Of a stretch of DNA of 64,000 bases, positions 5,429-9,337 are shown one piece after another (within the stretch, counting starts at the first letter, position 1; every line of letters starts with the position of its first letter). Under the pieces are notes generated by a model, which saw only the letters and a program-made list of their open reading frames with translations, was not told the DNA's origin and made no database searches. Both the position numbers and the translations under genes were made by a program. Source of the DNA: Anaerolineaceae bacterium (lineage in GTDB: Bacteria > Chloroflexota > Anaerolineae > Aggregatilineales > Phototrophicaceae); contig PABP01000014.1 of NCBI GenBank assembly GCA_002699585.1, forward strand, positions 496,001 through 560,000. The letters are read 5' to 3'.

Positions 5429-6397
5429 TTAATCTATATTGAGAGCAAGCTGCTTGGGTTTGCTCTCTCTTTTTACTTCTGATGATTTTTCTACAGTGTT
5501 TATTAGTGATGATATATTTGCTCTACCCGTTTGGCGGCTCTTCTTAATAGAACCAGCTCCACGTTGTAGGAAATAGCGATTGCCTTTGTTATTTTCTTCA
5601 GTTGTTTCGTATTCAACAACAAACAATGGGTGTTTCATCTGTAAGGCAGATTTCCCTGCACTGAAAGTGCCGCCTTCAAGCCGGGATTCGATAAGCATCA
5701 TAGCGTTAGAGAGTGCGATAATTGTTTTATTTCGTTGCATGGCATAGCCTGCGTTCCAGCCTGCCTTGCGCGGGAACTCAGAAATGACAAGTAGATTTTT
5801 CTTTTTTGCTACGGCTTTTAATTCTGCTCGAAGCTTAAAGGTATCAATCCCCTGAGGCAGAACAATGATGGTTCCCGCATCTTGGACGAGCGCAGCCTTG
5901 TGCGCGGTTGTATCAACGCCACGAGCATGTCCGCTAATGACGATCCAATCTTGCCCAGCGATTTGTTCAGCAATATCCTTAGTAGCTTCTAGCCCTGTCA
6001 CTGATACATTTCTTGATCCACAGAATCCAATGCCAGGATGGTTTAGTAATCCGAGATTACCCCAAGCATAGATTTTCTCAGGGGCCCTATCTCCTAGCTG
6101 CTGAAGCAGTCGTTTTGGATACCTGCTGTCATCTTTTGTTAGCGTAATTATATTGTCGGTAAACTTGATTGTGGAGTCCAATGGCTTTTCTTGTACTTCG
6201 GTGGTTAGCTGGCTACCAAACTCATGTATATTGCGTGCGACATTGATAGGTAACCCAAAACGAGCTTTGATTTCTGTAGCCTCAAGCTTTAGAAACCTTT
6301 CTATAGACATTTTTTCTTGTCTTAGAGAATTACATATTTTTTCGTAACGCTTAGGGCCTATACCGTCTATTGATTGAAGTTGTGCTAATGATGGCAT
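5429..6397 (-). CDS. DprA/Smf-family protein, probable ShosA-type antitoxin
   Basis: A 322-residue protein with an N-terminal helix-hairpin-helix (SIDGIGPKRYEKI, about residues 9-21) and a DprA Rossmann-like core: GSRN (127-130), SGHARGVD (155-162), ISEFP (205-209), RNKTI (222-226) and an EGGTF segment near 241. Canonical DprA loads RecA on incoming single-stranded DNA. Here the gene sits two bases after a phosphoribosyltransferase gene, on the same strand and with the same low GC, the order seen in the ShosTA toxin-antitoxin/anti-phage system, where the DprA-like protein neutralises the phosphoribosyltransferase. It lacks the usual DprA C-terminal winged helix and ends in a charged tail. The ShosA role is inferred from gene pairing; a housekeeping dprA is less likely given composition and context. 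Confidence 0.8.
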   Translation of the reverse strand: MPSLAQLQSIDGIGPKRYEKICNSLRQEKMSIERFLKLEATEIKARFGLPINVARNIHEFGSQLTTEVQEKPLDSTIKFTDNIITLTKDDSRYPKRLLQQLGDRAPEKIYAWGNLGLLNHPGIGFCGSRNVSVTGLEATKDIAEQIAGQDWIVISGHARGVDTTAHKAALVQDAGTIIVLPQGIDTFKLRAELKAVAKKKNLLVISEFPRKAGWNAGYAMQRNKTIIALSNAMMLIESRLEGGTFSAGKSALQMKHPLFVVEYETTEENNKGNRYFLQRGAGSIKKSRQTGRANISSLINTVEKSSEVKRESKPKQLALNID

Positions 6398-6399
6398 TA

Positions 6400-7200
6400 T
6401 TATCCCCTAATCGTTTTTGCTCCTACTAGTCCGAGGCATTTCCCACCAGCATTAACAATTTCTTGTGCTAGTGTCTGAATTGTTATTCCTGAACGATAGA
6501 CATCATCTATTATGATAACAGCTTTGTCCTCAAATACCTCAGGAGAATCAAGTTTGAAAACGTTTTGCATGTTTTCTGTTTTTTCATCAATAGTATTCAG
6601 ACTCTTTTGAGGTTGTGTAGCTTTTGTTTTCTTGACAAGATGAGAAGCATTCGTGATTTCAAATCTTCGACTTAATTCTTCTGCGAGATATGAAGGTAAG
6701 TCAAATTCTTTATGACCAAAATAAGGCATACTTACAATCAAATCGGCCTGTTTATACAGCTTATGTTTTTGAATAAAATGCTCCATATATTCGCATAAAT
6801 CGTTGAGTGCCTTTTGGTGAAGGCCTGTGTAAGGCCTGTCATATTTTGCCTTATTAACTAATTCTCCAGCTACTGTCCTGCCGCCCTCATCGTTGTCCCA
6901 ATATGGTTGGTAATAATAATCAAGAGCAAAAGATTGCATTAGACTATCAGCTATACATACTGCATATTGCAGCATATGTAATAAGCTTTCTATCTCTTGC
7001 TGTATGCCTTCCTCATTATCAATATATGCTCCCCAATCATAATTATTGTTTTTGTCTTTGAAGAGCGACTTACATCTACTCTTATATATCAATTTGAGTA
7101 TCTTATAGTAGATTACATCACCTGTCACAAGTACACAAAGTTGATTGGTTTGTTGTTGATAATCAGTTGAATAGTCCTGTAATTTGAACCTTTTTGGCAT
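6400..7200 (-). CDS. Phosphoribosyltransferase-domain protein, probable ShosT-type toxin
   Basis: A 266-residue protein with a C-terminal type I phosphoribosyltransferase domain. The PRPP loop IIIDDVYRSGIT (about residues 230-241) keeps the two acidic residues and the SGIT turn, and a hydrophobic strand (ADLIVSMPY) marks the start of the fold. The N-terminal 130 residues are Tyr/Asp-rich and match no family I know. It is the first gene of a two-gene operon: its stop TAA is followed by TA and then the ATG of the DprA-like gene, indicating translational coupling. In ShosTA systems the PRTase is the toxic effector. Base composition is much more AT-rich than the flanking chelatase gene, which supports recent acquisition. 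A ComF-like competence role is the alternative. Confidence 0.75.
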   Translation of the reverse strand: MPKRFKLQDYSTDYQQQTNQLCVLVTGDVIYYKILKLIYKSRCKSLFKDKNNNYDWGAYIDNEEGIQQEIESLLHMLQYAVCIADSLMQSFALDYYYQPYWDNDEGGRTVAGELVNKAKYDRPYTGLHQKALNDLCEYMEHFIQKHKLYKQADLIVSMPYFGHKEFDLPSYLAEELSRRFEITNASHLVKKTKATQPQKSLNTIDEKTENMQNVFKLDSPEVFEDKAVIIIDDVYRSGITIQTLAQEIVNAGGKCLGLVGAKTIRG

Positions 7201-7244: not shown

Positions 7245-8216
7245 CTATGCCCGGTCCATCTCCTGGCGAACGGTTTCCAGCAGGTTATCGGCGCGGATCT
7301 GCGAGAGGGCGTAGCATGGCCCACCGAGTTGATCAGCCAGTTTTTGCGCCAATCCCTGGTCGAACGCCACATGCTCCATGTTGACCGTCACCGTGCGAAT
7401 ATCGGCTTCTTTGATGAGGTGCGCGATCTGGTGCGCCTCATCTTGTGGCGATATTTTTTCGCTGATGCTGACGTTACCCGCGCCATCTGTCAGCAAGATG
7501 ATCAGCGGCATGACATCAGGCATGGCCAGCTTCTCTTTGCGCACGGTTTCATAGGCTAGCAGCAAACCCGCACTGAGCGGTGTCTTACCACCCACCGGAA
7601 TATCAACCAGGGCTTCCTTAGCGAGAGTCACGCTGTTGGTTGGGGGCAGCACCAGCGATGCGCGATCCTTCTGGAAAACAATCAGACCGACGCGGTCACG
7701 GCGCTGGTAGGCATCCGTCAGCAGTGACATGATCGCGCCTTTGGTGGCCTGCATTCGCTCACTGACCGCCATACTCCAACTGGCATCGACGGCGAACAAC
7801 ACCAAGTTGCTGGCCTTCTTCACGCGGATTTTGCGTTGAAGGTCGCTTTTGCGTAGGGCATACGCCATGCCTGTCTGTTTTTTCTGGTCACTGCGTTGGA
7901 TTTGGAAAGGGGCTGCCGCGCGCAATGTGGCATCGAAGGCGATGTCGTTCGTCTTGTTGCCCGCCGGAACAGCCCGGATATAGCGTCCACGTTTGCGTTC
8001 GGTAATCGTTGAGGTACGCCGCCCGGATTGCTTGCGCGACATTTTGTCGAGCTGGGTATTTAACTTGCGCGTCTCAAACTCAGCCGCCGCCTCCACTTTT
8101 TGGCCGCCTTCCCACCATTTGGCATCGGCGCTGGGGAAGGGATTTTGCGGGGCGGCAGGCTGGTCTGCAACATCTGGCGATTGTTGCGCTTCGCCGGATT
8201 CGTCTACTTCGTCACT
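7245..8216 (-). CDS. chlD: Chelatase VWA region, -1 frame continuation of chlD (medium subunit part)
   Basis: This frame is open from the A9 run at 8216-8224 to 7245 (323 residues). It carries an acidic, Pro-rich linker and then a von Willebrand A domain with a full MIDAS: DASWS, the Thr of GGKTPLS and LLTDGAG. Such domains form the medium subunit of Mg/Co chelatases and couple the AAA+ ring to the large subunit. The frame has no ATG or ribosome binding site of its own: the first possible start, GTG at 8096, sits inside conserved linker sequence. I therefore read it as expressed by -1 frameshifting from the AAA+ frame, giving a fused protein of about 697 residues (MIDAS at about 518). A simple sequencing or mutational frameshift is the alternative. 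No CobN/ChlH large subunit is in this window. Confidence 0.75.
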   Translation of the reverse strand, partial: SDEVDESGEAQQSPDVADQPAAPQNPFPSADAKWWEGGQKVEAAAEFETRKLNTQLDKMSRKQSGRRTSTITERKRGRYIRAVPAGNKTNDIAFDATLRAAAPFQIQRSDQKKQTGMAYALRKSDLQRKIRVKKASNLVLFAVDASWSMAVSERMQATKGAIMSLLTDAYQRRDRVGLIVFQKDRASLVLPPTNSVTLAKEALVDIPVGGKTPLSAGLLLAYETVRKEKLAMPDVMPLIILLTDGAGNVSISEKISPQDEAHQIAHLIKEADIRTVTVNMEHVAFDQGLAQKLADQLGGPCYALSQIRADNLLETVRQEMDRA

Positions 8217-9337
8217 TTTTTTTTAGAGCTAGATGACTGCTCGTCACCTGTGCTCTCGCCGCTCTCTGTGGTTTCCATCTGGTCTTCGTCATCACCAAGC
8301 TCGTCACGCTTCTCTTGTAGCATATCCGCTACTTTGTCGAGTTCGGCGGTCGCGTCAGTGAAAGGGCCACGCTTTAAGCGATGCGGAATCGCCAGCTTAA
8401 TAGCCAGGGCGATGTCCTGATCGTTGATGTGGTTGCGGCCTTCGTAAGCGGCATGCGCGCGTGCCGTCTTGAGCACGACCAGGTCTGCACGATGGCCATC
8501 AATCTGCATATCGGCCATCATGCTGGCGATTAAACGCAGATCGTTCTGGGTGTGGGATACATCGTGGATCATATCCCGTGCCGCAGCAATCCGTTTCGAA
8601 AGACTATCTTCTACTGGATGCCATTCTGTCTGGAATGCATCCATATCTTCTTCGTAAGCGATGTGCCGCTGTAAAATCTCAATGCGCTCCTGGGCGTTGC
8701 GGATGCCGCGTACATCGACCGATAAGGCGAAGCGGTCGAGCAATTGCGGGCGCAAATCGCCTTCTTCCGGGTTCATCGTCCCCACCAGGATGAAACGTGC
8801 AGGGTGGCTGAAGCTGATGCCTTCACGCTCGACTACGTTGACGCCCATCGCGGCGCTGTCCAGCAGCAAGTCCACGATATGGTCATCGAGCAGGTTAACT
8901 TCATCGACATATAAAATACCCCGGTTGGCACTGGCCAGGATACCTGGCTCGAAGTGCTTCTCACCGCGCTGGATCGCTTTTTCAATATCGAGCGTCCCCA
9001 CGACGCGGTCTTCGGTCGCGCTCACAGGCAGATCGACGAAGGGCGCTTTGCTAAATTCCGTTGGCACGTTCTCCACATCCGCATAACGCTCGCGGGTGAT
9101 GTCGGACCAGGTATTGGGGCGAGCCGGATCATCGTTAAAAGGTGAGTCGGCCACGACTTCCATTTCCGGTAGGAGGGCTGCCAGGGCACGGGCGGCGGTT
9201 GATTTACCCGTCCCGCGTTCACCACGTATCAAAACACCACCAATTCGCATATCAATGGCATTGAGCACCAACGCGAGGCGCATCAAATCTTGTCCGACGA
9301 TGGCGGTGAAGGGGTACACGGCTGGCCGTTTACTCAT
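8204..9337 (-). CDS. chlD: Mg/Co chelatase AAA+ subunit, zero-frame product of chlD (small subunit)
   Basis: A 377-residue AAA+ ATPase of the ChlI/BchI/CobS-like chelatase type: Walker A GERGTGKS (39-46), Walker B ILYVDEVNLL, sensor region GTMNPEEGDLRPQLLDRFAL. It ends in a Glu/Ser-rich acidic tail, then SSSSKKKVTK and a stop just after a run of nine A's. In the published chlD class this zero-frame product serves as the small (AAA+) subunit while -1 frameshifting makes the AAA-VWA medium subunit. The product is an ATP-driven motor for metal insertion into a tetrapyrrole. Cobalt (cobalamin) is the likelier metal because no bacteriochlorophyll genes are nearby. The ATG has GAGG eight bases upstream. 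Confidence 0.85.
   Translation of the reverse strand: MSKRPAVYPFTAIVGQDLMRLALVLNAIDMRIGGVLIRGERGTGKSTAARALAALLPEMEVVADSPFNDDPARPNTWSDITRERYADVENVPTEFSKAPFVDLPVSATEDRVVGTLDIEKAIQRGEKHFEPGILASANRGILYVDEVNLLDDHIVDLLLDSAAMGVNVVEREGISFSHPARFILVGTMNPEEGDLRPQLLDRFALSVDVRGIRNAQERIEILQRHIAYEEDMDAFQTEWHPVEDSLSKRIAAARDMIHDVSHTQNDLRLIASMMADMQIDGHRADLVVLKTARAHAAYEGRNHINDQDIALAIKLAIPHRLKRGPFTDATAELDKVADMLQEKRDELGDDEDQMETTESGESTGDEQSSSSKKKVTK
8216..8224 (-). other. A9 slippery site for -1 frameshifting in chlD
   Basis: On the coding strand the zero frame reads TCT AAA AAA AAA GTG. Two lysyl-tRNAs can slip back one base on this run and continue AGT GAC GAA into the VWA frame. An imperfect downstream hairpin (GGCGA / TCGCC, about 20 nt after the run) and an AGGTGA about 19 nt before it could stimulate slippage, but both are off the ideal spacing. 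Confidence 0.65.

Follow-up and report, generated by a model that had tools for sequence, protein, structure and literature searches.

Genes in which an AAA+ part and a VWA part meet across a poly-A frame break (fs-chlD genes) have been described as cases of programmed frameshifting. In its account of the magnesium-chelatase cluster, Antonov et al. 2013 (PMC3711429) includes 23 genes with a -1 break, Herpetosiphon being represented, and gives frameshifting in Escherichia coli as 63% with 11 A's, 40% with 9, and 10% with 7; the 40% of the A9 chlD cassette is not divided there between slippage on the RNA and slippage of the ribosome. The sections of Kuznetsov et al. 2022 (PMC9227772) on these genes report them from Chloroflexi (Brevefilum, Anaerolinea, and others), with some of the genomes lacking the large subunit and the function called unclear, and a review places the chlD shift site under frameshifting in the part that treats it (PMC5009743). 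Sites of the fs-chlD kind are therefore already known. In 2020, Antonov reportedly linked the gene, in MBE, to two cobalt-chelatase subunits. A search at the level of titles, with subscription literature mostly outside it, found none that proposes transcriptional slippage for a chlD-type gene.

The sources on dnaX supply further points of comparison. Where they discuss Thermus thermophilus dnaX, PMC5009743 and PMC1088944 describe an A9 run, near stops in both other frames, and two subunit length variants, and they expect transcriptional slippage at homopolymers of about 9 or more A or T. The relevant part of PMC3711429 names a shift direction that varies among orthologues as a criterion for transcriptional realignment, and it also covers the E. 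coli dnaX -1 site with its A-rich heptamer.

The gene analysed here lies in a window of 64,000 nucleotides, i.e. the whole stretch of DNA that was analysed, from an Anaerolineaceae bacterium. As in the fs-chlD genes of the published sections, an AAA+ part is followed by a VWA part across a poly-A frame break that is mostly -1; such genes are known from Chloroflexi (Herpetosiphon, Brevefilum, Anaerolinea), and copies in Brevefilum and Spirochaeta occur without a large subunit. The run of nine A's, the near stops in both other frames, and the two length variants recall T. thermophilus dnaX as portrayed in the cited parts, and the A-rich heptamer recalls E. coli dnaX. Unlike Thermus dnaX, in which standard decoding is said there to give the long form, standard decoding of the window's gene gives the short one. 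Unlike fs-chlD, which the sections at hand present as ribosomal or translational frameshifting, the A9-10 copies compared here bear a signature of transcriptional slippage, and an in-frame run with off-frame stops persists in most homologues that have a single frame, a feature that also departs from those published descriptions.

Layout of the gene

The forward strand of the window has nine T's at 8216-8224, i.e. A9 on the minus strand. It is here that the AAA+ frame (377 aa) and the VWA frame (in -1) meet, as the preliminary description had it, and both frames are intact (Table 1). GERGTGKST and ILYVDEVN in the AAA+ frame, which we take to be Walker A and Walker B, both look intact, as do DASWS and TDG in the VWA frame, presumably MIDAS-like motifs. 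Reading AAA AAA AAA and then stepping one base back gives a stop-free 374 + 323 = 697 residues, so the arithmetic agrees with the product lengths first proposed, 697 residues with a -1 slip and 377 without. The VWA frame was also rightly said to lack a start of its own: its earliest ATG, GTG, or TTG is an internal GTG at 8096, and the start position is not conserved in 105 genes. Exact A9 runs number 7 in the whole 6.7-Mb assembly.

Table 1. Features of the frame-broken gene, in window positions.
Feature	Position	Strand	Remarks
AAA+ frame, ChlI-like	8204..9337	-	ATG start; 377-aa short product under standard decoding
Putative A9 slippage run, read in the AAA+ frame as three Lys codons (AAA)	8216..8224	-	Kept in relatives
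AAA+-frame stop (TAG), 9 nt 3' of the run	8204..8206	-	A9 with the same spacing in 87/110 distinct junctions
Third-frame (+1) TGA, 1 nt 3' of the run	8212..8214	-	Read from the sequence
VWA frame, -1 relative to AAA+	7245..8222	-	Without a start at a conserved place
Predicted long product, ChlD-like, 697 aa	7245..9337	-	One-base backward slip at the run (arithmetic)

Together the two halves cover TIGR02442, "putative cobaltochelatase" (641 positions), with the AAA+ half matching 1-355 and the VWA half 357-640. Pfam places AAA lid and Mg_chelatase domains in the former and VWA domains in the latter. The solved sequences closest to the AAA+ half are the ChlI-type subunits 8osf, 6l8d, and 1g8p, an alignment that likens this part to the motors of magnesium chelatase (ChlI/ChlD) and cobaltochelatase (CobS/CobT). 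The VWA half is matched by ChlD models as well as by TIGR02442.

Conservation of the run and the frame break

The preliminary description had proposed comparing related genomes for the A run and the frame break. We assembled 138 loci, including the window's own, from 61 genomes and the best 80 of 587 named contigs. Two loci (L058 and L102) hold only the VWA half, and the other 136 of 138, with both parts, yield 110 distinct junctions. The VWA part is matched in 61 of 61 genomes, our own included, with a weak match in the poorly complete G025 (E 9.7e-5).

A -1 break at a run of A7-A10 is found in 105 of the 110 distinct junctions, including the window's, and these 105 comprise 96 with A9, 4 with A8, 4 with A10, and 1 with A7. 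The remaining junctions are fused (3) or in the +1 arrangement (2: L046 with A8, and L053 with A9 and an apparent second indel). A same-genus genome in one contig (G001) has the A9 and the break identical to the window's. In 87 of the 96 A9 junctions, exactly 9 nt separate the run from the AAA+-frame stop. These 87 genes were picked for A9, which makes their in-run AAA codons uninformative, and the fair figure is 96/105; outside the run, lysine is encoded by AAA in 1149 of their 2325 codons, and their longest other A run is at most 7. Conservation speaks for programmed coding of two proteins at the A run, predicted to be a short AAA+ form and a long AAA+-VWA form.

The fixed 9-nt spacing was considered as a mechanistic rule and rejected. 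In other lineages the stop lies 1-55 nt past the run, so it is closeness that is conserved and not the exact distance.

Two contigs, L116 (titled Pleurocapsa minor) and L103 (titled Bacteroidetes), carry a Chloroflexota-type copy of the gene. G016, a genome of the window's family, has exactly the junction seen in L116, and both contigs therefore look like mislabelled or mixed bins.

Split, fused, and +1 genes across the class

The wider sample holds 150 genomes of the class, with the VWA part detected at E <= 1e-60 in 130. The gene was fetched from 120 of these 130, leaving aside 7 of the window's order that were already among the loci and 3 partial copies (G121, G142, and G199). The 120 class genes divide into 77 split at -1, 39 fused, and 4 with the +1 arrangement. 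Run lengths in the split genes are A9 (47), A7 (20), A8 (6), and A10 (3), with one gene (L243) lacking an A6 run; two +1 genes are at A10 and belong to one family, and the other two (L273 and L274) have no A6 run either.

Relatives with one uninterrupted frame and no A run, which the preliminary description had named as grounds to refute the programmed frameshift, are few: 7 of the 39 fused genes lack an A6 run and 2 have A6 only. In the other 30 the same linker still carries a run of A7-A10 that is in frame (17 A9, 5 A10, 1 A8, and 7 A7). In all 30 a -1-frame stop follows within 29 nt of the run, so that a -1 slip there would yield a short protein, which is the arrangement of T. thermophilus dnaX as given in the sources cited above. 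Counting 2 of the 3 from the order set, 32 fused genes have a run; their next-longest A run measures 3-6 in 31 genes and 7 in the remaining gene.

On a FastTree phylogeny of 160 rows, the split or fused state requires at least 18 changes, or 10 when long-run genes alone are counted, and well-supported branches by themselves force 9 changes for the fused long-run group. L096 is fused and has A10, and just past the run its first bases match those of L027, a split relative; it shows what we read as the split-to-fused step. Family f49 includes runs of A8, A9, and A10 and fused, -1, and +1 arrangements.

None of the 9 fused class genomes with A6 or no run has a second AAA+ match at E <= 1e-30, which indicates that two products are not needed everywhere. 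An association of single-frame genes with a separate small-subunit gene was unsupported, a second AAA+ match (E <= 1e-30) being present in only 14 of the 39 fused-gene genomes as judged by eye.

The fused A7 genes L158-L161, L163, and L175 of family f18 mostly have a long stem-loop after the run, and they have a -1-frame stop at 26 nt and a +1-frame stop farther off at 31-145 nt. These genes are candidates for a ribosomal truncation of the dnaX type.

Off-frame stops and register

Ribosomal and RNA polymerase slippage at poly-A sites are hard to tell apart from sequence. Off-frame stops were scored against a synonymous-codon null that preserves the long protein. Of 148 split A9-10 genes, 0.93 carry a stop no more than 30 nt away in the frame left unentered by a -1 slip (null 0.44); with families counted once, the share is 0.92 against 0.47 (26 families, 99 genes). 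Fused A9-10 genes show raised stops in both off frames, 0.92 against 0.49 and 0.73 against 0.27 (12 families, 23 genes).

The A7-8 class is small, with 7 split and 3 fused families. In its split families, stops up to 30 nt away stand at 0.93 against 0.41 for the frame into which the -1 slip leads and at 0.53 against 0.46 for the frame not entered; within 6 nt the not-entered frame is also raised (0.39 against 0.11, 31 genes). Its 3 fused families have stops at 1.00 against 0.33 in the used frame and 0.00 against 0.02 in the other. The null fits at control positions, both in the VWA body (0.18 against 0.24 and 0.32 against 0.35) and in the linker (0.29 against 0.26 and 0.10 against 0.12).

Codon choice right after the run follows the same pattern. 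Among 80 split A9 genes, the post-run serine codon is AGT in 38 of 40 when GA comes next and in 15 of 40 otherwise, the AGT-GA genes being related (five family codes of the window's order and named contigs); elsewhere in the 80 genes, serine is encoded by 386 AGT and 2045 AGC codons, pooled. The window is one of the AGT-GA cases, AAAAAAAAA-G-TGA, and its third-frame TGA arises from the choice of AGT before GA.

The register is A-AAA-AAA in 27 of 27 A7 genes with family codes and AA-AAA-AAA in 9 of 9 split A8 genes, and A9 is found in all three registers. The heptamer A_AAA_AAA is in register at the window, where it is to be read with the fact that any A9 contains one in every register. The arrangements of A9-10 genes are -1, fused, and +1, i.e. 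the shift direction varies among orthologues (-1, 0, +1) in the sense of the passage on realignment in PMC3711429, with the +1 A10 cases being only two genes of one family. With L046 (A8) and L053 (A9, second indel), these are the few +1 genes that have a run. The window's A9 is also within the length of about 9 or more at which programmed transcriptional slippage is expected. Genes that share ancestry do not count as independent cases. In paired contrasts on the tree (7 pairs), the not-entered-frame stop stands at 3.0 same to 0.1 opposite and the strong fold at 0.6 same to 3.9 opposite; a sign test on these 7 independent pairs, a small number, is in the expected direction and not significant (median p 0.25).

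Downstream structure and upstream signals

The -1 frameshift of E. coli dnaX is stimulated by a downstream stem-loop and a Shine-Dalgarno (SD)-like signal. The A7-8 relatives add a downstream stem-loop, as E. coli dnaX has, whereas the window differs from E. coli dnaX in its A9, with no consensus stem in its family and no clear SD-like signal. In a fold test of the 55 nt from +4 against shuffles, with z as family mean, split A7-8 genes reach -2.40 (se 0.32, 7 families) and split A9-10 genes -0.40 (se 0.19, 26 families). The corresponding values for fused genes are -1.34 (se 0.90, 3 families) and -0.42 (se 0.31). Individually, 26 of 36 A7-8 genes have z <= -2 vs 19 of 106 A9-10 genes.

Consensus stems in A7-8 families have 1 (f18), 2 (f11), 2 (f38), and 0 (f27) compensated pairs; f24 has a weaker stem with 4 compensated pairs, and f45 (A8) has no stem of note. 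For A9-10, a consensus stem is present in f8, f28, f46, and f34 and absent from f30, f40, and f43. The window's own downstream fold is moderate (z -1.9 at +4), and an 11-pair hairpin is common to the window (L001) and its near relatives L002 and L007; in the window's family the number of consensus pairs is 0, both across all 35 genes and across the 25 genes of at least 76% identity.

An H-type pseudoknot seen by eye after the run was set aside: it loses its second stem in the same-genus relative, and the family has no consensus pair. For an SD-like element upstream the counts differ with the controls, at 24/105 against 19/420 with one set of control positions and at 0.17 against 0.16 in A9-10 families with nearer controls and family means.

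How the second product may arise

Taken together, A7-8 runs look like classical ribosomal -1 sites, given their fixed register, mostly strong stem-loops, and stops mainly in the frame of the -1 slip. A9-10 runs fit RNA polymerase slippage better, given that they occur in all registers and mixed arrangements, with weaker structure and stops in excess in each of the two unwanted frames. Much like Thermus dnaX, the A9-10 genes resemble scramblers of run length, where any wrong frame would have to end at once. The window's A9 thus probably belongs to a two-product gene that works mainly by RNA polymerase slippage. Concerning the programmed -1 frameshift of the preliminary description, the two-product coding stands as conserved; a slip by the ribosome is doubtful, with the A9-10 signature fitting RNA polymerase better. 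The chlD precedent cited for it is indeed in print, as far as the pertinent sections of PMC3711429 and PMC9227772 go.

If RNA polymerase is the main slipping machine, one gene would give two proteins in a set ratio. The mRNA with the templated nine A's would be read to the TAG and yield the ChlI-like AAA+ subunit. Addition of one A (or 1+3n) by RNA polymerase would join the frames into a ChlD-like AAA+-linker-VWA protein, and transcripts that lack one A or carry two extra would run into the TGA one base past the run and give a short AAA+ protein too. Some ribosomal -1 slipping on the A9 run may add to the long product. Since both products share one AAA+ domain, they could form mixed rings with a VWA arm on some subunits only, as in ChlI/ChlD. 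We infer the ratio and the mixed ring, like the predominance of the transcriptional slip, from comparison of sequences; the comparison itself establishes the conserved run, the break, and the off-frame stops.

The alternative that survives best is programmed -1 ribosomal frameshifting on A_AAA_AAA, in which unaltered mRNA would give the long product. It draws on the in-register heptamer, on the reporter efficiencies of 10, 40, and 63% for A7, A9, and A11 in the cited part of PMC3711429, on the window's fold and the hairpin common to L002 and L007, and on the A7-8 relatives, whose ribosomal signature implies that the gene family can use ribosomal slipping. Yet it leaves unexplained the excess of stops in the frame not entered, the free register, the +1 arrangements at A10, and the lack of a consensus stem in the window's family, and we consider it rather unlikely for the window. 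A separate VWA protein made by translational coupling, through re-initiation near the stop or at the GTG at 8096 that the VWA frame does offer, is highly improbable: in 105 genes the first ATG, GTG, or TTG of that frame is scattered between -393 and +407 nt relative to the run, one continuous frame is found in 39 of 120 class genes, and re-initiation requires no A run. Homopolymers are error-prone and a few relatives are off by one A (L096, fused at A10; L046 at A8), but the same kind of break in 105 of 110 distinct junctions, with protein sequence conserved on both sides, leaves next to no room for sequencing error or a decayed pseudogene.

With RNA polymerase slippage as the preferred reading at A9-10, we are evenly divided on a broader proposal for the class. 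In it, the same two-protein output would have been kept while the slipping machine (the ribosome at A7-8, where a stem-loop is present, and RNA polymerase at A9-10, where it is absent) and the default protein were repeatedly swapped, and the AAA+/VWA machine would serve an undescribed function in most class genomes without a chelatase large subunit. If this is true, split genes slip toward the long form and fused genes toward the short form. Off-frame stops, register, and structure seem to separate both kinds of slip inside one gene family, and this combined test could be tried elsewhere; the class offers natural contrasts (A7 vs A9, and split vs fused).

Chelatase partners and genomic context

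The preliminary description had assigned the two products to cobalt chelatase, an assignment that finds no backing in the genomes. In the window's own genome (G000; 96% complete, which makes absence likely, not certain), there is no match to the large subunit CobN/ChlH (PF02514) or to CbiC (PF02570, the sole corrin marker used). Across the 61 genomes, 58, our own included, have no large-subunit match, 3 have one, and CbiC is matched in 1; in the class sample the large subunit is over the cut-off in 13 of 150. Given these counts the cobalt-chelatase role is unsupported, and with no large subunit found in its own genome the gene is unlikely to encode part of a complete chelatase of the ChlHID or CobNST kind. 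The target of the AAA+/VWA machine in its own genome does not look like that of a corrin or chlorophyll metal chelatase. This sharpens the question raised in the sections of PMC9227772 on such genomes, i.e. what job a widespread ChlI/ChlD-type motor has in bacteria without CobN or ChlH.

Among the three genomes with a large subunit, G026 and G037 have two genes next to it, one ChlI-like and the other ChlD-like and in frame, and in G056 a ChlD-like gene adjoins one of two large-subunit genes, with a further ChlI/ChlD-like pair on another contig. The homologue of the frame-broken gene lies on yet another contig in all three.

A second ChlI-like AAA+ gene, 40% identical, is present in the window's own genome (L141:8896-10056, on C35), and 45 of 61 genomes have a gene of this kind; the remaining 16 show no AAA+ match besides the frame-broken gene (by eye, E <= 1e-10). 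The second gene lies near ORFs that by eye resemble prenyl synthase and type 2 IPP isomerase, with no VWA gene adjacent.

Downstream of the frame-broken gene, on the minus strand at 5429-7200, are two adjacent ORFs of DprA-type and phosphoribosyltransferase-type appearance (by eye), which per the listed examples are in no group common to at least 3 of 15 loci. Over about 9.5 kb in the window and 14 relatives, only the gene's own two halves are shared by at least 9 of 15 loci, and the neighbourhood offers no clue to function. The other neighbour groups are an antisense shadow of the gene (6/15), an ABC-transporter gene (by eye, 6/15), and two more at 3/15 each.
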